This document shows positions 11,477 through 54,728 of a stretch of DNA of 64,000 nt, piece by piece (within the stretch, counting starts at the first letter, position 1; each line of letters begins with the position of its first letter). Below the pieces are notes generated by a model. It was not told the DNA's origin. It did no database searches and was given only the letters and a program-made list of their open reading frames with translations. Source of the DNA: an uncultured Roseburia sp. (GTDB lineage: Bacteria > Bacillota > Clostridia > Lachnospirales > Lachnospiraceae); NCBI GenBank assembly GCA_947642555.1, contig CANRSX010000014.1, positions 1 to 64,000 on the forward strand, given 5' to 3'. A program made the translations under genes and the position numbers.

Positions 11477-12853
11477 TTAGGAACGGACATACTTTTGATT
11501 TTTGCTGCTTGGTTTTTCGGGAATCGTTCTAAGCAATTTCCCTGTTTTGAGCAAGGGATTCAAGTATGTGCGTGTAAAATATGTCAGATTACGAAAGCCG
11601 AGATGTTCACATATTTCACGTTTGCTTCTTGGATCTACGCAAAATTCAAGAATCGTCTTAGTCACAACCTGGTCAGTATCTTGGTCACTGAGTGACTGAG
11701 ATGAATAGTTGACATTCTTCAGGGTTACAAAAAACGATGAATGAGTGGAATGGAATGTAGGTTTCAATTCCTCCGTATATCCGGGCAGTTTTGCAGTTTC
11801 GTCCAAAATCTTCTTGATGCCGCTTCCGCGTCGCTCCATAAACTTCATGCGATGGAATAAATCAGCGATTACAGGATTGCGGCGCACGGAATCAATTTCA
11901 TCCAAGCCGCACTCCTGAATCGGCTTTCCACGATACATTCCGCCGGGGGAGTAAATTTCCAAGCGATCATCGTACATATCAATGTGAACTTCACTGCCCA
12001 TAACAAGGTAATCCCTATGAATAAGAGCATTTACAAGCGCCTCCGTAACAGCTCTTTCAGAATAATCGGGTTTATCCACTCTGTATTGTGCTTTCTTTTC
12101 AAACCGCACCTTTGAATTATTGCGGACAAATTCTGTGCCGCTTTTGAGCAGATAAATCAGATTACCCTCATATTCCTTGTCGTCCACAGCATCGTCAAAA
12201 ATTGATCCCTTGTCAAGCCCATTCCAACGGGTACAGAAAATCCTTGAATTATATACGATATGCTGATCGGTCAGCAAGCGACCAGCATTTGTTAGAAAGC
12301 CTTCTTTGTCCGCAAGTCCAAAGGATACATAATTCGTAGGCTCAAAACGCAATTTTGCTCTTTCCAAATATGTTGCTTCAAGCAATGTAAAGCTATAATC
12401 TGATTTCTTGCTGTCAGTAATCAGAGAATCGAAAGTGCGATTTGTACCTTTTAGTATAAGCTCCCGCAGCATATAATCTGGCGCTACCATACTCTCATTG
12501 CCAATACGAATATAGGCTTCGGTTGCACCGTCCGCTTTATAAAAGTACGGTGTAGCGGGACCGGAATTTACAGTCAATGAAAGCAGATTTTTTCCTTGCT
12601 CCTGCATTGGAGCTAACAAAAATTCCGGCAGTGGCGTAATGCGTTCTTTAATCAAGCGGCTAATATCTTCTGCATCTGACTGTACATCAGATAAACCAAC
12701 GGTGTTTCTGTTATCATCTATACCGAAAAAGAGTGTACCGCCGATACCGTTGGCAAAGGCACTGACACTTTTGAGCCAGCTTTTCGGCTTTTTAACTTCC
12801 AAAACAACTTTGAAATCGCATTCTGTTGCTTCTGCGATCCATCTGTCTATCAT
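11477..12853 (-). CDS. AlbA_2 / Schlafen-type ATP-binding putative transcriptional regulator
   Basis: A 459-residue protein with an N-terminal AlbA_2 domain (about 1-120: LEVKKPKSWLKSVSAFANG, GGTLFFGIDD), a central HATPase-like 'RecG C-terminal' region (VTEALVNALIHRDYLVMG, YDDRLEIYSPGG) and a C-terminal winged-helix segment ending LLRTIPEKPSSKNQKYVRS. Proteins of this kind are often annotated as RecG-like helicases but lack helicase motifs. They are common in mobile elements, and some belong to phage-defence islands. I chose the ATG at 12853 because GGAAAGGAAG lies 8 bases before it. It begins 21 bases after the stop of the broken DUF6076 gene, so it belonged to one operon with DUF6429 and DUF6076. 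Confidence 0.85.
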   Translation of the reverse strand: MIDRWIAEATECDFKVVLEVKKPKSWLKSVSAFANGIGGTLFFGIDDNRNTVGLSDVQSDAEDISRLIKERITPLPEFLLAPMQEQGKNLLSLTVNSGPATPYFYKADGATEAYIRIGNESMVAPDYMLRELILKGTNRTFDSLITDSKKSDYSFTLLEATYLERAKLRFEPTNYVSFGLADKEGFLTNAGRLLTDQHIVYNSRIFCTRWNGLDKGSIFDDAVDDKEYEGNLIYLLKSGTEFVRNNSKVRFEKKAQYRVDKPDYSERAVTEALVNALIHRDYLVMGSEVHIDMYDDRLEIYSPGGMYRGKPIQECGLDEIDSVRRNPVIADLFHRMKFMERRGSGIKKILDETAKLPGYTEELKPTFHSTHSSFFVTLKNVNYSSQSLSDQDTDQVVTKTILEFCVDPRSKREICEHLGFRNLTYFTRTYLNPLLKTGKLLRTIPEKPSSKNQKYVRS

Positions 12854-12873
12854 AAATTTTTCTTCCTTTCCCA

Positions 12874-13662
12874 TCATTCCTTTTTATCCTTCGATCTGCT
12901 TTTATACACATTATACTTATTCTTGCACCAGGGGCTGCAAAATACCGCACTCGGTCTGTTTGCCACAAATGCCTTGGTGCAATGTCTGCATAGGCGGATC
13001 GGGTTGTCGTTATCTGTCAGCATGAAGCTGAGCATCATCTGAATACCCAGCAATAAGGAATGGAAATCCCAAACTCTTCATAATAAAGGGAGCTGCTCAC
13101 ATGAGTAAATGACCAGTCAATGAATTGCTGTTTCATCCACTCATACGGCTCGGCATGGTTCCTTTGGAAGCTCATATTGACCACCATCGGCTTGTCGGTT
13201 ATGGTCATAGCAAGCGCCATCATTACACGGTCATTCTGAATATTCCACATAGATTCTACGCCACGCTTAATGACTTCTAAACTGTCAAAAGGGAAAAATA
13301 TATTCAGGTAGTCCTCGGTGGACATCGTTTCTTCTTTGATAAAGTGGTTTTTCGGCAAGTACACCGCCTCATAGTCCATAAAACTCGGCGTGGTCGGAAG
13401 TGCAGTCATCAAGCCGAACAGACCGTATTTCACGGCGAATTGTTGGATCACCTTTTGAATTTCGGCGTCTGGTTTATGTTTCATTCCCAGCCGTCCTATG
13501 TCAATGGCATCTAATACAATCCGCTGATACTCGCTTAACGGATCGTAAATACTGGGCTGTCTTTGTTGGCGTGAGGTACAGAGTCCCGTCCGCTGCCGCC
13601 CTCCACTCGTATTCGCTATATCGCACCCAATGAGAACTGGTGCGTTCAAATAAATTTTTCAT
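12874..13662 (-). pseudogene. DUF6076-type protein gene with frameshift and internal deletion
   Basis: The 5' part reads MKNLFERTSSHWVRYSEYEW up to about 13550. Homology then moves frame and continues YDPLSEYQRIVLDAIDIGRL, MTALPTTPSFMDYEAVYLPK, VNMSFQRNHAEPYEWMKQQF. Near 13045 the middle of the protein is missing and the frame changes again to MMLSFMLTDNDNPIRLC and a zinc-finger-like C-x2-C tail (CRHCTKAF, FCSPWCKNKYNVYKSR) ending at 12874. So two lesions inactivate it. The family has no known function and is carried by clostridial mobile islands. The ATG lies just after the stop of the DUF6429 gene. Confidence 0.75.
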
Positions 13663-20517: not shown

Positions 20518-21606
20518 TCACCCGGTTTTCACCTCAAACAAAAAACCGACGCCCTCCGCGTCCACACGCGCCTTAAACCGCCACAGGATCTCATCGAGCT
20601 TTGCAATCTCATCCTCATAGTTCTCCATCGTGATCTCCATGGACAAATCCCCGATATCCCGGGCCAGCTGGTCCGTTACCGCCGTAGAACCGTGTACCAC
20701 GTCCACATACTGATACATGTCCGTGATCAGATGCTCCTCATTAAAACGTGTCGTATATATCTTCACATTCTCATATGCCAGCAGCCGCTTCAGGCAGACC
20801 CTTAACGTCTGCTCATAAGAGTCGAGAAGTCCCTGGTTATATGCCCGGTCCCACCACACAATGGGATACGGCGGCAGGAAGAAGAGAAATTCCGTCTCCG
20901 GATGTTCTGCGACAATCGTCTCAATCCGGTTCAGATTCTCCTCCACCCGGCCGGCCTCCTCCTCCCAGGGCTGCTGCTTTACTTCCGCAAGGCCGGTGGG
21001 GTAATAGCCGGCCAGCACCTGATCCGGCCCGGCCGGCATGGCGTCATTAAAGCTGTAGGCCTTCCCCCAGGAGTAATCCTCCGCCGCGGGATTTGCCAGA
21101 AACCCCGGGACTTCATTCGTCAGGATCTCACCGTTCCAGAGATACCTCACATCGTCGAAGGGATTCCGGTTCGCCAGATATGCCACATCCTCCGAAAAAA
21201 CCTCCATATCCGGGTCCGAATAAAAGGAAAAGACGTCCAGCCCGTAAAACACGCGTGTCAGCGATCGATGCAGAAATGCCCGCCCCAGATATTCCGTCAG
21301 CACCGGAGCCGGCGCCGCATCCGCCACCGCCTTGACCACAGTGCCGCCAAACCGCTCCTCCAGCACATCGGTATTCATGCTGATCACGACCGACGAGCCA
21401 CAGAGCACACTGTCATAGTCCACATGGGCAAGCACCCCCGGAATCTGATACTCCTTCTGATCCTGCACGGCTGCCAGCCCGAACCAGGGCTTATGATAAT
21501 GAAAAAACGGATCCACACATATTACAACCGCCGCCGTCACTGCCAGGATAAGGGCGGACGCCGCGAGAAACTGAAGCGTCCGCCGTTTTGCGTCTTGTTC
21601 TGCCAT
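20518..21606 (-). CDS. SGNH-like membrane-anchored partner of the MBOAT acyltransferase (copy 2)
   Basis: A 362-residue protein with an N-terminal membrane anchor at about residues 12-30 and an extracytoplasmic domain. CGSSVV (S71) occupies the nucleophile position and VDVVHG (D302-x-x-H305) the catalytic Asp/His block of SGNH hydrolases or AlgJ/DltD-like acyl-transfer proteins. It is a close paralogue of the preceding gene over its whole length. Its ATG overlaps the stop region of that gene, with GAGGTG upstream, so both are translated from the MBOAT transcript. A role in O-acylation of a surface polymer is inferred from this context. Confidence 0.75.
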   Translation of the reverse strand: MAEQDAKRRTLQFLAASALILAVTAAVVICVDPFFHYHKPWFGLAAVQDQKEYQIPGVLAHVDYDSVLCGSSVVISMNTDVLEERFGGTVVKAVADAAPAPVLTEYLGRAFLHRSLTRVFYGLDVFSFYSDPDMEVFSEDVAYLANRNPFDDVRYLWNGEILTNEVPGFLANPAAEDYSWGKAYSFNDAMPAGPDQVLAGYYPTGLAEVKQQPWEEEAGRVEENLNRIETIVAEHPETEFLFFLPPYPIVWWDRAYNQGLLDSYEQTLRVCLKRLLAYENVKIYTTRFNEEHLITDMYQYVDVVHGSTAVTDQLARDIGDLSMEITMENYEDEIAKLDEILWRFKARVDAEGVGFLFEVKTG

Positions 21607-22689
21607 CTACTGTTTCACCTCATACATAAACCCGGTACCCTCCGCGTCCACACGCGCCTTAAACCGCCACAGGATCTCATCCAGCTTTGCGATCTCCTCC
21701 TCACAGTTTTCCATCGTAATCTCCATCGACGGATCCCCGATATCCCAGGCCAGCTGATCCGTTACCGCAGCAGCGCCATGGATATCATCCATATACTGAT
21801 ACATGTCCGTGATCAGACTCTCCTCATTAAAACGCGTTGCATACACCTTTGCATTCCCGTATTTCAGCAGCTCCGTAATACAGACTCTTAACGTCTGCTC
21901 ATAGGAGTCGAGAAGTCCCCGGTTGTATGCCCGGTCCCAGTACACAATCGGGTACGGCGGCAGGAAAAAAATAAACTCGGTCTCTGGATGAGCCTCAATA
22001 ATTTCCCCCAGATAATTCAGATTCTTCATGACCAGTCCTGACGCATTCTCCCATGGCTCCTGCTCCACTTCCACAAGTCCGGTCGGCTCATATCGGGCCA
22101 GCACCAGATCGGGCCCGGCCGGCTCTCCCTCATTAAAACTGTATGCCTTCCCCCAGGTATACGCTCCGTTGGACATGCGCAGCATATTCGGTATCTTTTC
22201 TACAAGGATCTGCCCGTTCCATAAATACCAGACGTCATCAAACGGATTCTCATTCTCCAGGTATTCTACATCTGACGGCGTTCCTTCATTGTCCGGGTCA
22301 CTGTAAAACGAAAACACGTCCATTCCGTAAAATACATAATCCAGATCATGACTTTTAAAGGCGCGTCTCAGATATTCCGCAAGCACCGGCGCCGGCGCGG
22401 TATTTGCAACCGCCTTCACGGTTCCGCTGGCATAGCGCGCCTCGAGCACCCCGGTATCCACACTCATGACCACCGAAGACCCGAGCAGCACACTGCCGTA
22501 ATCAAGGTTGTCGAGCACGCCCGGAATCTGATATTCTTTATCATTCTGATACGCCGCAAGTCCAAACCACGGCTTATGAAAATGAAAAAAAGGATCGATC
22601 AGAAACACGGACAGCGCTGACGCCGTAAGGAGAAAGCCCGCCACAAAAAAGAAAAGAACCGCCATTTGTTTTGCTTTTTTCTCTGTCAT
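21607..22689 (-). CDS. SGNH-like membrane-anchored partner of the MBOAT acyltransferase (copy 1)
   Basis: A 360-residue protein with one N-terminal membrane segment (about residues 9-31) followed by an external domain. LGSSVV (S71) and DDIHG (D301-x-x-H304) match the Ser and Asp-x-x-His blocks of SGNH acyl-transfer or esterase folds. The motif IDPFFHFHKPWFGLAA just after the membrane segment is shared with the paralogue downstream. It starts 11 bases after the MBOAT stop with a perfect AGGAG ribosome site. Tandem duplication of this partner suggests two acceptor or donor specificities, but none can be named. Confidence 0.75.
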   Translation of the reverse strand: MTEKKAKQMAVLFFFVAGFLLTASALSVFLIDPFFHFHKPWFGLAAYQNDKEYQIPGVLDNLDYGSVLLGSSVVMSVDTGVLEARYASGTVKAVANTAPAPVLAEYLRRAFKSHDLDYVFYGMDVFSFYSDPDNEGTPSDVEYLENENPFDDVWYLWNGQILVEKIPNMLRMSNGAYTWGKAYSFNEGEPAGPDLVLARYEPTGLVEVEQEPWENASGLVMKNLNYLGEIIEAHPETEFIFFLPPYPIVYWDRAYNRGLLDSYEQTLRVCITELLKYGNAKVYATRFNEESLITDMYQYMDDIHGAAAVTDQLAWDIGDPSMEITMENCEEEIAKLDEILWRFKARVDAEGTGFMYEVKQ

Positions 22690-34152: not shown

Positions 34153-37100
34153 TTATTTATCTGGCCGAACCGGATCCCCGGACTTTTTCGCCAGCACCTT
34201 CCGGTAAAACCGGATGAATTCCACGCCCGTCATGGTCTCCCGCTTCACCACTTCCGCTGCCAGCGTCTCGATGAGCTCCTTCCTGCCCGCCAGAAGGCCT
34301 CTTGTCTCCTGGTACAGCTGTTTTAACAGCTCGTTTACCGCCTGGTCACTCTGCTCGCGGAAGGCGTCGGAGCAGCTGTACGCGCTTACGCCAAGATGCT
34401 GCGCCGTGTCCCGCTTTAAGGTCATGAACCCGAATTTCTCCGTAAAGCCCAGCTGCTCCACCATCGCCCGGGCCCAGTAGGTGGCGTTCGCCATGTCCGA
34501 GGAAGCGCCTGTGGAGATATTATCCCTGCCATAGACGATCTCCTCGGCGATCCTTCCGCCCATGGCGGCGCGGATGCGGATCTCGAAATCCCGCTTCGTC
34601 AGCAGGATCCTCTGGCTGGGCCGCACATATCCCAGGGCGTCGCCTCTGGGCAGGGAGGTGATCTTCTCGAAGGGCTCGCGGCCGTACAGAATCTCCACCA
34701 GCGCGTGTCCCACCTCATGGACGGAGACGGCGAAGCGTCCCCCATCGTTGCTGCCTGTGCTGGCGCCGCTGTCCCTGTCCGCCGGATGCGGATCGCCCAC
34801 CGTAAACCGCTCCACGGCTTCGTAAATATTGCGGTAGAGGAACCCCAGCTCCACGTTGTTCCCGAACCGCGGTTCCTTCCCCTTTAACGGCTTCCTGTCC
34901 GGGGACATCGCCTCCTGGTCGTACATGATAAAGGCGGTGTTGATGATGTTTTCGATATCGCCGGGCGCGCGCCCTGCGGTGATCCTGGCAGTCTCCTCCG
35001 CCAGCTTTTTCACGCCGCGCAGCTCCGCCGCAGAGAGGATCTGTTCTCCCTTTTCGTCGGGCCCGCTGCCAAACTGCGCCAGTGCCCCACATCGCCTGAG
35101 AATGTATCGTTCCGCCAGCGCACGGCGGGCCTTTTGGTCAGGCAGCGTGAAAAACAGTTTCTTGTCGATCCTGCCGGAGCGGGTAAAGGCGGGGTCCAGG
35201 AACTCATAGGCGTTGGTGGCGGCAAGGATGAACACATTGGTGCGCTGCTCGATGCCGTCCATCTGCCGGATCAGCTCGATAAAATGGGAATAGTTCTCGT
35301 TCTGAAACCGGTTCCTGGCGATAGCATCCACCTCATCGATGAAAATCACGCAGACATCATACTCCTCGGCCCTGTCAAAAATGCTGGCAATAAAGCTGAC
35401 CGGCTTTGTCGTGATCTCCGGGGCCGACAGGGACATGAAGCCCACCCGCTTATTTGCCGTTTCAGCGTCAGCCTCAAATCTCGCCTGAAGCTCCCCCGCC
35501 ATGGCCCGGGCGATAAAGGTCTTGCCCACCCCCGGCGGTCCCATCAGCAGAGCTCCTTTGGGGACGGTAATGTGATACCGGTCATACCGGACCCTCTCCG
35601 CCAGCATATCGATGATGCTCTGCATATACCCCGTCTGATTTTCACAGCCCTCCAGATCGTCAAAGCGGGTGTCGATGTCAGTAATCATCTGGATGCGGTC
35701 CGAATCAGCGGTGCCGGCGGCGTAAATGTTTCCTCCCCTGCGCCTTACGGTGTCCAGCTGGCGCTTCACATCCCGCTTGATGGAGGTCATGATGGCCTCG
35801 ATCTGCCCGGTGATGCCGTTTCCCTCGGTGCAGTCGAAATCAATGCCGTCCATGCAGCGCCCAAGGAAGCTCTCGACGCCTGCGTAGTTGGCGAAATAGG
35901 GCGAATTCTGAGGCTGCGCACCCCACATGAAAAACCTTGTGAGCATTGCCTTCTGGGTCTGGAACTGCTTTTTTAAGATATCGTATTTCTTAAACGCCAC
36001 ATTGTCCCGCTGATGCTCCAGTTCCCTGCAGAGCTTGTCGTACAGCTGGTCCTTTGTGGGCGGTGTCAGCGGAATCCGTTTCAGACGTCTGTAGAGGCCC
36101 TTGTTCTGGTTTAACATCAGGCGGATCTCATCCTCGTATCCGGCGATCCAGATGGGAGGGACGCCCGGTTTGATATATCTCGCGCCCCCGTTTACCGCCC
36201 CTGTCTCAAAATCCACTGACAGGGTACGCCGGCTTCCCCCGCTGTCGCCGGTCGACGCGTCGACTTTTGTCCGGCCTGTCATTAAGGGCAGCAGAAGGGA
36301 CACCGCCTCCCGGCCAAAGCCGTCCGACATCAGCTCATACGCTTCGTCCACAAAGAGGATCGCGTTGTTCTCCGCCGCTTCCAGCAGTTTGCTTAAGACC
36401 TCATATTTTGTCCAGCCCTCATACGCGCCCTTTAAGTCCGGCGGCGCGACCTCCTGCACCTCCCGGTCAAACACGCACTTCCCCAGTTTTTTCGCCAGTT
36501 CGGTCTTCCCTGTGCCCGCCTCGCCCATCAGCGCGACATTCGGGATCTTTCCGTTCCTGTTGAACTCATTTTTCATCTCGGTCGCAAGAGCGATGACGCC
36601 CTGATCCGCCACCATGTCCTCACCGTACAGCCTCTCCTTCATCTCCTCACGGCTGATCTCATTCAGTCTCGCGGGATCCAGAAACAGCCGGTTTACGCCA
36701 AAGTTTATGACAGCCCTTCTGATGCTCTGCCAAAGCGTCCCGTTCTTCAGAAAGTCTTCAAAATCCGGGTCGAGCCGCATGGTCTCGGGAAGCTCCTCAC
36801 CGGGGAAGGAGCTGCGCTCCCGCAGGCTGTTCAGATCGCCGGTAAAGGTTTTATTCTGCCCGCGGACCGACGCTCTGATCCCAGGAGCGGAGTATCCTCT
36901 CGGCAGGAAGGCGATCCTGGTCTCACCTTCATAAAAGACCGCCTCCAGCACGTCGATCCTGGCAGAGGCTTCAAAGCTGCCGTACCCGCCAGGGTACCCC
37001 GAAATCGAATTCTTTAAAATCCGGGGCGGGATCCACTGCGCCGTCAGGTCAAAGGTCTCTGTTTTCAGAAAATACTGATCCTTTGTGCCGTCGATATGCC

Positions 37101-38118
37101 GGAAGACATACCCGTTTGCCTCGTAAGTCTTCGCACCGGAAAACGCGGAACCGAGGGCGCGGATATAAGCAGTACACAGGTCGTGTGCAGACTCTGTAGT
37201 CAGGCTGTGGGGATCCGGCAGCTCCGGGGGGATATAAACAACCCCCGTATATCTGTTTTTTCCGCTGTCCCGGTTTTCGGCAGTATACCGGTATTCCCCG
37301 TTTATATTCTGAAAAACCACGTCCCTCCTGCTTTCGTTCTGCTCAAATCCACAGGCCAGCAGATCATAGCTGTCCGGCGTATCATAAAAGATGACCGCAT
37401 CCTTCGTCCTGCTGATCTTCTGGTACAGCCTTCCGCCAGACAGCAGACTGAAGGTCACATGATCTCCGTCCGTATCCAGAAAAGTATGGAGCTGTACATC
37501 GTAGTTATAGCTTTCCGATTCGTCCACGCCGGCCTCATTGATCCAGGAATTCTCCCATTCCACATTATAGGAAAATACGCCCGCATACTGCCGTTTCCCG
37601 TCCGCCTCCACGATACCGTTCGATAACACATAGTAATATCCGCCATCCGCACCCGTGAAAGGCCCGAAGAAATAGACCGTTACATCGCGGCCGTCCCGTT
37701 TCGCAAAGCACTGCAGCGGGCGCATCGTGTAGAAGGATCCCTCATCATCGTCCGTCACCATATCCAAAGCTGTGACAGCCGTGATATCCGTGTAAACCGC
37801 TCCCGGACAGCACAGCTTTCTGACCGCGATCCCCGGATCCGCACAGTAATCCAGCAGCGTGATCAGAATCGTCCTCTCATCGCAGCTGACCACCAAATCC
37901 TCACCCAGCCCGTCGCTGATCCGGCATTCGCAGAGCTCCCGGCTGTCGCCACGGGGATACACCGGCTGGGAACAGAGCCTCTCCTTCCACTCCTTTATAT
38001 TTTCGCAAAATTCTTCATAGTCACCGCTGATCTCCATATGTACCGCAGCGCCCGGGGCGTCGCCCTCCTCCGGACGGGGATAAATCAGAACGCTGTACTG
38101 CCTTGCTTCTCCATCCAT
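34153..38118 (-). CDS. Double AAA+ ATPase with C-terminal FtsH-type (M41) zinc protease domain
   Basis: A 1321-residue protein. Residues 1 to about 480 have no family I recognise and are rich in beta-prone, Tyr/Asp-containing segments. A first AAA+ module of CbxX/CfqX-like type follows (Walker A GEAGTGKT 532-539, Walker B ILFVDEA around 587-593). The second, at about 815-1065, is FtsH-like (GPPGVGKT 860-867, VIFIDE 924-929, AATNAYEFLDPAFTRSGRID). The M41 domain has HEVGH (1134-1138) and STGASSD, whose D1208 is at the spacing of the third zinc ligand. All catalytic residues look intact, and no membrane helix or signal peptide is visible, unlike true FtsH. It is monocistronic with GGAGGG before the ATG. 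A cytoplasmic unfoldase-protease is inferred; substrates are unknown. Confidence 0.88.
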   Translation of the reverse strand: MDGEARQYSVLIYPRPEEGDAPGAAVHMEISGDYEEFCENIKEWKERLCSQPVYPRGDSRELCECRISDGLGEDLVVSCDERTILITLLDYCADPGIAVRKLCCPGAVYTDITAVTALDMVTDDDEGSFYTMRPLQCFAKRDGRDVTVYFFGPFTGADGGYYYVLSNGIVEADGKRQYAGVFSYNVEWENSWINEAGVDESESYNYDVQLHTFLDTDGDHVTFSLLSGGRLYQKISRTKDAVIFYDTPDSYDLLACGFEQNESRRDVVFQNINGEYRYTAENRDSGKNRYTGVVYIPPELPDPHSLTTESAHDLCTAYIRALGSAFSGAKTYEANGYVFRHIDGTKDQYFLKTETFDLTAQWIPPRILKNSISGYPGGYGSFEASARIDVLEAVFYEGETRIAFLPRGYSAPGIRASVRGQNKTFTGDLNSLRERSSFPGEELPETMRLDPDFEDFLKNGTLWQSIRRAVINFGVNRLFLDPARLNEISREEMKERLYGEDMVADQGVIALATEMKNEFNRNGKIPNVALMGEAGTGKTELAKKLGKCVFDREVQEVAPPDLKGAYEGWTKYEVLSKLLEAAENNAILFVDEAYELMSDGFGREAVSLLLPLMTGRTKVDASTGDSGGSRRTLSVDFETGAVNGGARYIKPGVPPIWIAGYEDEIRLMLNQNKGLYRRLKRIPLTPPTKDQLYDKLCRELEHQRDNVAFKKYDILKKQFQTQKAMLTRFFMWGAQPQNSPYFANYAGVESFLGRCMDGIDFDCTEGNGITGQIEAIMTSIKRDVKRQLDTVRRRGGNIYAAGTADSDRIQMITDIDTRFDDLEGCENQTGYMQSIIDMLAERVRYDRYHITVPKGALLMGPPGVGKTFIARAMAGELQARFEADAETANKRVGFMSLSAPEITTKPVSFIASIFDRAEEYDVCVIFIDEVDAIARNRFQNENYSHFIELIRQMDGIEQRTNVFILAATNAYEFLDPAFTRSGRIDKKLFFTLPDQKARRALAERYILRRCGALAQFGSGPDEKGEQILSAAELRGVKKLAEETARITAGRAPGDIENIINTAFIMYDQEAMSPDRKPLKGKEPRFGNNVELGFLYRNIYEAVERFTVGDPHPADRDSGASTGSNDGGRFAVSVHEVGHALVEILYGREPFEKITSLPRGDALGYVRPSQRILLTKRDFEIRIRAAMGGRIAEEIVYGRDNISTGASSDMANATYWARAMVEQLGFTEKFGFMTLKRDTAQHLGVSAYSCSDAFREQSDQAVNELLKQLYQETRGLLAGRKELIETLAAEVVKRETMTGVEFIRFYRKVLAKKSGDPVRPDK

Positions 38119-38224
38119 GTGTTTTTCCCTCCTTAGCCGTTGTGTCCTGCCCTCGCATTCCTGCCCGCAAACGTTTCTTTCAGCATGGTATCACAGCGGA
38201 TGAAACGGTGTCAATAGCGGCGCG

Positions 38225-52767: not shown

Positions 52768-53397
52768 TTAAATTGTAAGTGTTTCTTCTAAAACCTCACT
52801 CACCGGATTTCGCTTCATTTTTACTTTATTGTGCAAAAGCTCCAGTTCTGTCCCAACATTCAATATGATTCTATTCTTTTTCCATTCATCTTCATATGGG
52901 TCCCGCGCCGCACATCCCAGGCGCGGAATCATTGTTTTTGGATTTGTCCCCTGATTTACCATATTGAATTTTTCATTTTCATAGGTGGTGTATACTATAC
53001 ATTCACAGATCCGGATTCCCAAAAATTCCGCTATCGCTAATGCCGTAAAATAACTTGTTCTCACCTTGGGCTTTATACTCTCCTGCCATGTTTTATATCC
53101 CACACCACTTTTCATTTCAAACAGATGGAGGCGCCACCCGGCTTCCATGTGCTCAAACAATACGTGATCCACACTTTTCTGGAGACCATATTTCTTTTCC
53201 TGCCGTAAGAAATTACATTTTCCTTTTTGGGGGCCGTCAAAATTGCAGATACATAAATTTTCATTCTGTACATGGACGATCAGTTCGCTCCTGCCAGAAT
53301 CCTCTTTTTCGATCAGGTGATATGTATCACTTACAGGCAGAAAATAATCTTCTTTTATAAACTGATCCAGCGCAAACCGGACTCTCGCGTTAAACAT
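52768..53397 (-). CDS. Predicted PD-(D/E)xK-type nuclease partner of an ABC-type ATPase
   Basis: A 209-residue protein with no family I can name. SVDHVLFEHMEAGWRLHLFE MKSG has D77 and, 17 residues on, E94-x-K96, the Asp...Glu-x-Lys pattern of PD-(D/E)xK nucleases. The following helix (QESIKPKVRTSYFTALAIAE) is placed as in that fold. The start has a perfect AGGAGG site and lies two bases after the ATPase stop, so the two proteins are almost certainly made together. The pair is AT-richer than purM and the lipoprotein operon on its sides. Function in phage defence is an inference from the ATPase-plus-nuclease layout. Confidence 0.6.
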   Translation of the reverse strand: MFNARVRFALDQFIKEDYFLPVSDTYHLIEKEDSGRSELIVHVQNENLCICNFDGPQKGKCNFLRQEKKYGLQKSVDHVLFEHMEAGWRLHLFEMKSGVGYKTWQESIKPKVRTSYFTALAIAEFLGIRICECIVYTTYENEKFNMVNQGTNPKTMIPRLGCAARDPYEDEWKKNRIILNVGTELELLHNKVKMKRNPVSEVLEETLTI

Positions 53398-53399
53398 TT

Positions 53400-54728
53400 T
53401 TAGTCCTCCTGAAACGCATAAACTTCTCTCAGTATTTTTTCAAGCGCATCATTCAGCGTAGGTACTACAAAACCATACTGTGTCCGTTCGAGTGCTTCCA
53501 GCCTCGTTTTCCCATTTTCGCACGGAACAAACTGATACATGGAAACGTCTCTTCCATCCAGCAGGTCATTTTTGCCGTAGCCATATTCCGCCATCAGTTC
53601 CGATACGTTTTCATGATTTTTAAGCTTCAGCATATTATTCATATGCTGAAGTATCGTCTCACTGTGGGTAGTGATCCATACCGGAATCCCCATATTCACC
53701 AGATTGATAATCAGCCGGGACATCTTCTGCTGTAGCTCCGGATGCAGATGTGCCTCAGGCTCTTCTATAATCAGTGTCTTAAAATTGATATCGGATTGAA
53801 ACAACAGGAGTATCGGCGAGAGTTCCGTAATAATAGAAGATGCCACATACAGCGGAATCTCTTTTTGAATATCATCCGGACAATACCGGATCAGCGGAAT
53901 CATCTCCTTTTTTATAGTCAGGTTTCCTTTCATCATATGGTTTTCAATATAACTGACGATTTCTCTTTTCTTTTTGCCAGGCTTCCCATTTGCGTCAAAT
54001 TTTGTAAGCAGCTGCAAAAAATCAACATAAGGCAGTGTAAGCATACTGGAATTTTCCTGTGCGGCCGAACCGTAGCTAATCTGTAAAGAATTCTCAATCA
54101 TCTGAGGATATGTCAGCATAAATCCGGTTCTGGATGCCGGAAGATATACCGGCTCACCCATACGTCTTCCTTTTATCATCGGCGTATAAAGAGGCGCTGC
54201 GATTCCTTCCATTAATAAATTCCAGCATATATATGCATTCATCCGGAAAAGTTCTTCTCTGGTGCAAACGTCATATTGAGGAAATTTGATATAAGTTTCT
54301 GTGGCAGAATAGCGTTCTGCTGTCCTTTCCCAGCGGATTTCCAGTCCAAATTTTCGCTTGTAGTTTTTTATTTCAATCTTTTCCGCTTCCACCTCATAGT
54401 TAAACAGCTTCTTTAGCAAACCTTTTTTTCTGGCATTTAACATTTCATTAAACCAGGAAATATAATTTTCTGTCATTTCATCTGTCAGCACGATATTCCT
54501 GTTCAGATTCTCTTCCAGCCAGGATTCGCAGCGTTTATATACACCTGATCCCGAGGGCGCTTTGGGAAATATTTCCTTTCCCATTGTCAGAATCCCCCAC
54601 ATCAGGCACATCAGGTAGCTTTTTCCGCTGTTGTTATCTCCTACAAAACACATTAACGGTGATATTCGGATTGATGCTGATTCAATTTTGGCAAACTTTT
54701 TTACATATAATGTCCATTCTTTATTCAT
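53400..54728 (-). CDS. AAA_15/AAA_21-type (ABC-like) ATPase
   Basis: A 442-residue ATPase of the OLD/SMC-like class. Walker A is GDNNSGKS (30-37), a signature-like ASSIITELSPI precedes the Walker B LIIEEPEAHLHP with the tandem E322-E323, and the H-loop is VWITTHSETIL (H355). The LPASRTGFML segment is common in AAA_15 proteins of defence islands. There is no C-terminal Toprim nuclease domain, so any nuclease activity would come from the partner gene that follows two bases later. GGAGGGG precedes the ATG. Related layouts include PARIS and other ATPase-effector pairs, but the partner here is different. Confidence 0.8.
   Translation of the reverse strand: MNKEWTLYVKKFAKIESASIRISPLMCFVGDNNSGKSYLMCLMWGILTMGKEIFPKAPSGSGVYKRCESWLEENLNRNIVLTDEMTENYISWFNEMLNARKKGLLKKLFNYEVEAEKIEIKNYKRKFGLEIRWERTAERYSATETYIKFPQYDVCTREELFRMNAYICWNLLMEGIAAPLYTPMIKGRRMGEPVYLPASRTGFMLTYPQMIENSLQISYGSAAQENSSMLTLPYVDFLQLLTKFDANGKPGKKKREIVSYIENHMMKGNLTIKKEMIPLIRYCPDDIQKEIPLYVASSIITELSPILLLFQSDINFKTLIIEEPEAHLHPELQQKMSRLIINLVNMGIPVWITTHSETILQHMNNMLKLKNHENVSELMAEYGYGKNDLLDGRDVSMYQFVPCENGKTRLEALERTQYGFVVPTLNDALEKILREVYAFQED

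Follow-up and report, generated by a model that had tools for sequence, protein, structure and literature searches.

A giant tandem-AAA M41 protein without a visible membrane anchor in an uncultured Roseburia: a candidate soluble unfoldase-protease

The DNA analyzed here, referred to below as the window, comprises the 64,000 nucleotides at positions 1 to 64,000 of contig CANRSX010000014.1 from an uncultured Roseburia sp. (assembly GCA_947642555.1). It contains a giant gene predicted to encode two AAA modules and an M41 peptidase domain in one chain (Table 1). An initial annotation, made from the sequence alone, had given the exact coordinates of this gene but not its strand; the plus strand carries many stop codons over the interval, and the 1321-codon open reading frame lies on the minus strand, running from 38118 to 34153. 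Both Walker A/B sets, the second region of homology (SRH), the HEVGH motif and D1208 were found at the residues given in that annotation, and further motifs were located as ILFVDEA (587-593), VIFIDE (924-929), the SRH itself (966-986) and GASSDMANAT (1204-1213) around D1208. Pfam profiles matched the three modules well above their cut-offs, with 36.2 bits for AAA_5 (cut-off 22), 129.2 for AAA (21.2) and 130.7 for Peptidase_M41 (29.9). No Pfam family had its best stretch before residue 480 among the best 25 of 41 families with an expectation value (E) of at most 1.

Table 1. Features of the giant gene and of the neighborhoods of its relatives (residues are those of the giant protein)
Feature	Position	Strand	Basis
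Giant gene, predicted 1321-residue tandem-AAA M41 protease	34153..38118	-	open reading frame call, Pfam, motifs
Probable ribosome-binding site AAGGAGG	38128..38134	-	9 nt upstream of ATG start
Residues 1-480, beta-rich N-terminal region, putative recognition part	36679..38118	-	predicted model, Pfam scan
Residues 485-790, AAA1 and lid, CbbX/SpoVK/EccA type	35749..36666	-	profile matches, model
AAA1 Walker A GEAGTGKT, residues 532-539	36502..36525	-	motif
Y566, AAA1 pore-loop aromatic	36421..36423	-	alignments A1, A2
Residues 815-1060, AAA2, FtsH-type	34939..35676	-	Pfam, PDB matches, model
AAA2 Walker A GPPGVGKT, residues 860-867	35518..35541	-	motif
Residues 898-910, SAPEITTKPVSFI, site of the FtsH FVG pore loop; shortened, without the loop aromatic	35389..35427	-	alignments, model
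Residues 1125-1305, peptidase M41 domain	34204..34746	-	Pfam, model
HEVGH, residues 1134-1138, zinc-binding and catalytic motif	34705..34719	-	motif, conservation
D1208, presumed third zinc ligand	34495..34497	-	motif, conservation
About 22.7-kb element at a tmRNA site	G735:C8:22242-44946 (in L085, L086)		17-bp direct repeats
Genes upstream of the L087 relative: WYL, PDC-M09B-like, 181-residue, PDC-M09A-like, then leucine-rich-repeat	L087:2587-8566	-	

The giant protein is apparently soluble, with no membrane anchor visible in its sequence. Its highest mean Kyte-Doolittle hydropathy over 19 residues is 1.10, as compared to 2.26-2.87 in three ordinary FtsHs that this genome also encodes, which agrees with the initial reading that no membrane helix is present. 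In the family defined below, only 6 of the 82 proteins have a 19-residue window of 1.6 or more anywhere.

A search of 5.8 billion proteins (7993 candidates scored, the best 120 of 3168 matches listed) yielded two groups of relatives. Alignment A1 holds 46 rows including the query (P0002-P0047 minus the shorter P0026), at 35-67% identity to the query; alignment A2 holds the query and 36 relatives from P0048-P0093 (37 rows), which cover 58-65% of the query, mainly the motors and the protease. We excluded P0077, P0082-P0086, P0089-P0092 and P0094-P0120 from A2, because their coverage was only about 30-42% and mainly concerned the FtsH part. The query stands in both alignments, and the family totals 82 different proteins. 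Since the proteins of A1 parallel the query over most of its length, a chance fusion or assembly artefact could be rejected.

All rows of both alignments keep K538, D591, E592, R677, K866, D928, R980 and R983, as well as the protease residues H1134, E1135, H1138 and D1208, with E929 and N969 each deviating in a single A1 row. The predicted zinc site draws its support from conserved ligands and from the fold. Motifs, profiles, models and the 81 homologues together bear out the initial proposal of a soluble AAA-AAA-M41 unfoldase-protease lacking a membrane anchor.

The first motor (AAA1) is, by profile searches, of the CbbX/SpoVK/EccA type, in line with the CbxX-type domain originally proposed. 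Of the PDB entries, an AAA1 profile built from a 10-row alignment (A3) matched CbbX best (E 5.6e-19), with EccA1 second (2.3e-16), whereas a PDB search with the single AAA1 sequence gave weaker matches with ClpC-type proteins ranking first; over this same part of the protein, the NCBIfam models for EccA, SpoVK and CbbX scored 43.7, 38.2 and 20.5 bits, respectively, every one far below its cut-off. The preprint that defines the clade (PMC10659427) describes a GY signature of sensor 1 and an asparagine ahead of the arginine finger. The GY signature is present in AAA1 (G660 and Y661, invariant in A1 and A2), and the pair N672 and R677, spaced by four residues, does not vary either, which may fit the second part of the clade signature. 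The finger could be either R677 or R678, the latter being kept in 46/46 A1 and 36/37 A2 rows; no arginine of the lid was assigned as a sensor 2 finger. The position of Y566 is occupied by Y, F or W in 44/46 A1 and all 37 A2 rows, and CbbX is reported to depend on its Tyr-Ile-Gly pore loops for the remodeling of Rubisco (PMC5385338).

The second motor (AAA2) and the M41 domain match FtsH in profile and fold comparisons. A model of residues 471-1321 (mean predicted local distance difference test score, pLDDT, of 87.6) aligns with FtsH-type enzymes in its second part, and with p97/CDC48 across both motors. For FtsH (PMC9020784), substrate is described as bound by the phenylalanine of an FVG motif near the pore, and one or more N-terminal transmembrane helices are given as a feature of the FtsH family. 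The three FtsHs of the same genome read FVEMFVG at this pore loop. The corresponding F894-F914 stretch is 19-24 residues long in the family, as compared to 24 in these FtsHs; when its first four and last seven residues are set aside, no aromatic residue occurs in the remaining pore-loop window in any of the 82 family proteins, whereas one is found in 3/3 of the FtsHs. Since AAA1 keeps its pore aromatic and AAA2 has lost that of FtsH, the first motor probably grips and pulls the substrate and the second probably relays, as judged from the alignments.

We further built a tree of the AAA2-M41 part from 16 of the 46 A1 rows, 18 of the 36 A2 relatives and 12 FtsH-type rows (the three of this genome and nine from the homologue search). 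A branch supported at 100/100 sets the FtsH-type rows apart from all others, and another with the same support sets the A1 group apart, while A2 does not form a single group; the tree is midpoint-rooted, four FtsH-type rows have an unlike letter composition, and the 12 rows are not a broad sample of FtsH. Four M41 proteins whose chains hold HEAGH and three Walker A motifs (P0085, P0106, P0109 and P0111, of which P0109 and P0111 are named Acidimicrobiales) group with FtsH in this tree, and differ from the giant protein both in this grouping and in their hydrophobic N-terminal stretches (best 19-residue means 2.2-2.9). More broadly, P0085, P0105-P0111 and P0113-P0115 are M41 proteins in which three Walker A motifs occur together with hydrophobic stretches, the best 19-residue means being 1.95-2.9; some are named Acidimicrobiales or Solirubrobacterales.

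The N-terminal region of about 480 residues was initially described as being of unknown type, and this description holds. The model of residues 1-500 is confident (mean pLDDT 88), and neither Foldseek nor VIA returned a trustworthy fold or a convincing PDB match for it, which is no proof that the fold is new. Sequence identity within this region is half of that in the core, pointing to fast divergence. Searches for the N-terminal domain standing alone or fused otherwise returned the query and P0003 alone, or nothing; these searches were weak, since they missed P0002, whose N-terminus is 46% identical. Because the region diverges fast and the relatives carry many dissimilar N-termini, grouped into 14 clusters, it is plausible that the N-terminus chooses the targets.

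The giant gene is sporadically distributed in the genome collections scanned. Among 98 genomes, a full-length match was found in its own genome alone; the best match elsewhere (E 8.6e-31) is an FtsH piece, and the 59 other genomes of the genus were therefore taken as having no such gene. The whole-protein profile likewise gave a full match in the own genome only among 397 genomes of the family. AAA1 was found in 3/392 genomes of the order sample (the own genome, G735 and G709), 1/397 of the family sample, 1/398 of the phylum sample (the own genome), 2/101 within the genus of G735 and 1/48 within the family of G709 (G709 itself). A gene copy could have been missed in these scans, because only the best candidates per genome were scored: 2 in the whole-profile family scan, up to 6 in the genus, order, phylum and AAA1-family scans, 25 for the genus of G735 and 54 for the family of G709. 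GTDB contigs yielded four clear relatives, L065-L068, among 12 loci, with L066 lying on the G735 contig (its first 3000 bases are part of L085) and L065 being identical to L089 of G1217. Six other loci (L069-L074) encode Bacteroidales proteins of about 1110 residues that are related to AAA1 and contain three or four Walker A motifs in a frame without HExGH; we did not include them in the family. L075 and L076, which matched at E 6e-5 and 6e-4, were discarded, their open reading frames having no P-loop pattern. A viral collection gave no match with the giant protein and at least five weak matches with the AAA1 profile, of which the five listed were dropped for want of a DEAY-type open frame above 250 residues.

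Five independent neighborhoods were available, namely those of the window, L065, L066 with L067, L068 and L087. We counted L066 and L067 once, as their proteases are 75.5% identical and stand in a common cassette of a receiver-domain gene, a small gene that is DNA-binding-like by eye, a zinc-ribbon gene, the protease, an M78 protease and a MORN gene; the M78 and receiver genes are 86-87% identical between the two. In G735 the cassette's protease relative is cargo of a mobile element. The transfer-messenger RNA (tmRNA) gene ends at a 17-bp repeat, of which a second copy occurs after 22,688 bp; a gene whose product has Resolvase, Recombinase and recombinase zinc-ribbon domains stops 69 bp short of this copy, and no other exact 16-base repeat spaced 8-30 kb apart was found in the 34 kb tested. 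The element carries recombinase, ParB-domain, DRT2-like and MORN-repeat genes in addition to the protease relative. The DRT2-like reverse transcriptase (PADLOC 453.7 bits) lies about 2 kb upstream of the protease gene, and DRT systems are described as anti-phage (PMC12596737). The M78 (ImmA/IrrE-like) protease (Pfam 52 bits, capP 64.6 bits) adjoins the relative's gene. The other scanned genes of this stretch had no clear PADLOC match, a helix-turn-helix gene being weak (HTH_VI 27.0, capH 22.3) and the others below 20 bits.

At L087, where the relative contains both Walker A motifs and IIFIDE, the 6 kb upstream hold, in the same orientation, genes for a WYL regulator, a PDC-M09B-like protein (57.5 bits) and a PDC-M09A-like protein (100.1 bits). 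The 181-residue gene among them matches TerB below threshold only. The beginning of the relative's gene is overlapped by a leucine-rich-repeat gene of the BspA type. No mention of PDC-M09 turned up in the open-access papers searched. The L068 gene is broken and ends at the contig end. PADLOC gave no match for the two open reading frames scanned at L068, and no clear match for two genes scanned at L065, where 596 bases are masked.

In the window, an APH-family kinase gene (90.1 bits) lies on one side of the giant gene and a sialic-acid acetylesterase-like gene (56.2 bits) on the other; the wider surroundings are sugar-related, sulfatase-like and housekeeping genes (several labels given by eye). 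In nine relatives of the genus (L113-L121, with L117 shortened), the 13-20 kb around ispF gave no match at E 1e-10 to the giant gene or to the APH, GNAT, esterase, tetR, sulfatase and sugar-binding genes, while sigH, rlmB and ispF stand together in 8/9. The sequence beyond ispF varies among the seven relatives examined there: L114, for example, has a homocysteine methyltransferase gene, and L118 has prophage tail genes. Since the giant gene and its neighbors are missing from these stretches and the content beyond ispF differs, the site is variable by this comparison, yet no mobile element was shown in the window.

The explanation that we hold, with moderate confidence as a whole, is a soluble three-tier ATP-dependent zinc protease whose rings would divide their labor and which would serve as accessory immune cargo. 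We infer that six copies would stack as an AAA1 ring, an AAA2 ring and an M41 ring, with the N-terminal domains on top. Each N-terminal domain would bind a particular protein, which AAA1, with its aromatic pore loop, would grip and thread; AAA2, having no FVG loop, would hydrolyze ATP, mainly relay, and couple the AAA1 ring to the protease, and M41 would cut the threaded protein. The most likely role would be the destruction of a phage or mobile-element protein. Based on motifs and models, the reading of the protein as such a machine is likely. The defence role taken by itself is tentative, and we place it somewhat below an even chance; the phage defence suggested in the initial annotation is thus retained as circumstantial, coming from two of five neighborhoods (L066/G735 with its DRT2-like gene and L087 with its PDC-M09-like genes) and having no counterpart at the window's own. 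The stress and cargo-processing roles suggested alongside it found no support in this analysis.

Several observations weigh against this explanation. Defence-like genes occur in only 2/5 independent neighborhoods; PDC-M09 is a candidate system only, and the L087 relative ends before M41 at a contig end. The APH, esterase-like and (by eye) GNAT-like neighbors of the giant gene have no PADLOC match, and no phage or plasmid record matches AAA1. As for the mechanism, the hexamer and the order of its tiers are assumed, because a single chain was modeled in two pieces. Other loops could also grip the substrate, and in 21/82 family proteins the site of the lost loop is followed after a few residues by an F-I-G-like triplet; this triplet corresponds to the start of the next helix (in register with Walker B by eye, the helix of the model starting at residue 908).

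The strongest competitor, which we nevertheless consider unlikely, is a chaperone-protease that attends to a single self protein, as CbbX, SpoVK and EccA do, serving for example the quality control of envelope or surface proteins and unrelated to phages. According to PMC10659427, the characterized chaperones of the AAA1 clade are narrow in action, each having a single target, and both the sugar-related and housekeeping surroundings of the window copy and the leucine-rich-repeat gene at L087 would suit such a function; on the other hand, the very sporadic spread, the fast-diverging N-terminus and the copy carried as mobile-element cargo argue against it. A second alternative is that the protein regulates or maintains the mobile element itself, together with the M78 protease, and is not an antiviral effector. 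The cassette common to L066 and L067 and the recombinase and ParB-domain genes of the G735 element speak for this possibility, which is quite improbable overall; the copies in the window, L065 and L087 have no such cassette in the stretches examined. An FtsH paralogue that lost its anchor, gained domains and performs broad quality control is less probable still and very unlikely: AAA2-M41 is clearly FtsH-like, but the NCBIfam FtsH equivalog TIGR01241 scores 246.5 bits against a cut-off of 600, the genome already has three ordinary FtsH genes, the 12 FtsH-type rows are split off at 100/100, and the FVG loop is lost.

The soluble three-tier protease that we favor resembles several known machines in part. 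With FtsH, m-AAA and i-AAA (peptidase family M41) it shares the SRH arginines, HExxH with a distal Asp, the AAA-protease order and the fold; unlike them it has no visible membrane helix or FVG loop, and it adds a CbbX-type AAA and the long N-terminus. Its variable N-termini, its pore loop of the aromatic-x-Gly kind, its GY signature and perhaps an Asn ahead of the arginine finger recall CbbX, SpoVK and EccA, but here this motor is fused to an FtsH-type AAA and a protease. As compared to p97/CDC48 and other two-ring AAA+ unfoldases, the protease is in the same chain and the AAA modules come from different families. The anti-phage system IetAS shares the idea of an AAA motor with a protease, and PADLOC IetA matched residues 831-1007 (71 bits), which covers only the FtsH-type AAA. 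IetS is a separate subtilisin-like partner, and no IetS-like gene was recognized by eye among the neighbors, of which the PADLOC scan covered a selection. PADLOC gave no whole-length match, its 13 matching models each being best within part of one AAA module, and a limited search of the open-access literature found no description of the AAA-AAA-M41 architecture.

Two sister AAA families are joined in one chain, and a protease is placed on a chaperone clade whose defining paper reports no association with peptidase domains (PMC10659427). The protein offers a testable case of work-sharing motors, with one ring gripping and the other having no grip loop; if the defence link is true, this would be an antiviral protease complete in itself, whose recognition domains can be exchanged. 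That it represents a new kind of immune machine, a one-protein soluble three-tier protease with an interchangeable N-terminal sensor for an invader protein, a CbbX-type pulling ring and an FtsH-derived chamber, passed between related bacteria as cargo of mobile islands, is a rather doubtful proposition. The initial annotation is extended in four respects: the gene lies on the minus strand, AAA2 no longer has the pore loop of FtsH, the distribution is sporadic, and one relative sits within a mobile element.

Three further loci of the window, all on the minus strand, deserve mention. About 15 kb from the giant gene, two adjacent genes at positions 52768-54728 encode a 442-residue ATPase matching PADLOC PD-T4-4_A (135 bits) and a 209-residue partner for which PADLOC gave no match; the two may form a defence pair of their own. 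Positions 11477-12877 encode a 466-residue protein that combines a Schlafen/AlbA_2 domain (75 bits) with HATPase_c_4 (94 bits) and a Fic-like C-terminal domain, and partially matches Argonaute-linked PADLOC models (59 bits). Finally, two similar neighboring genes of about 360 codons lie at 20518-22689 beside an MBOAT acyltransferase gene; they are probably a tandem duplicate, since both match one gene of L120.

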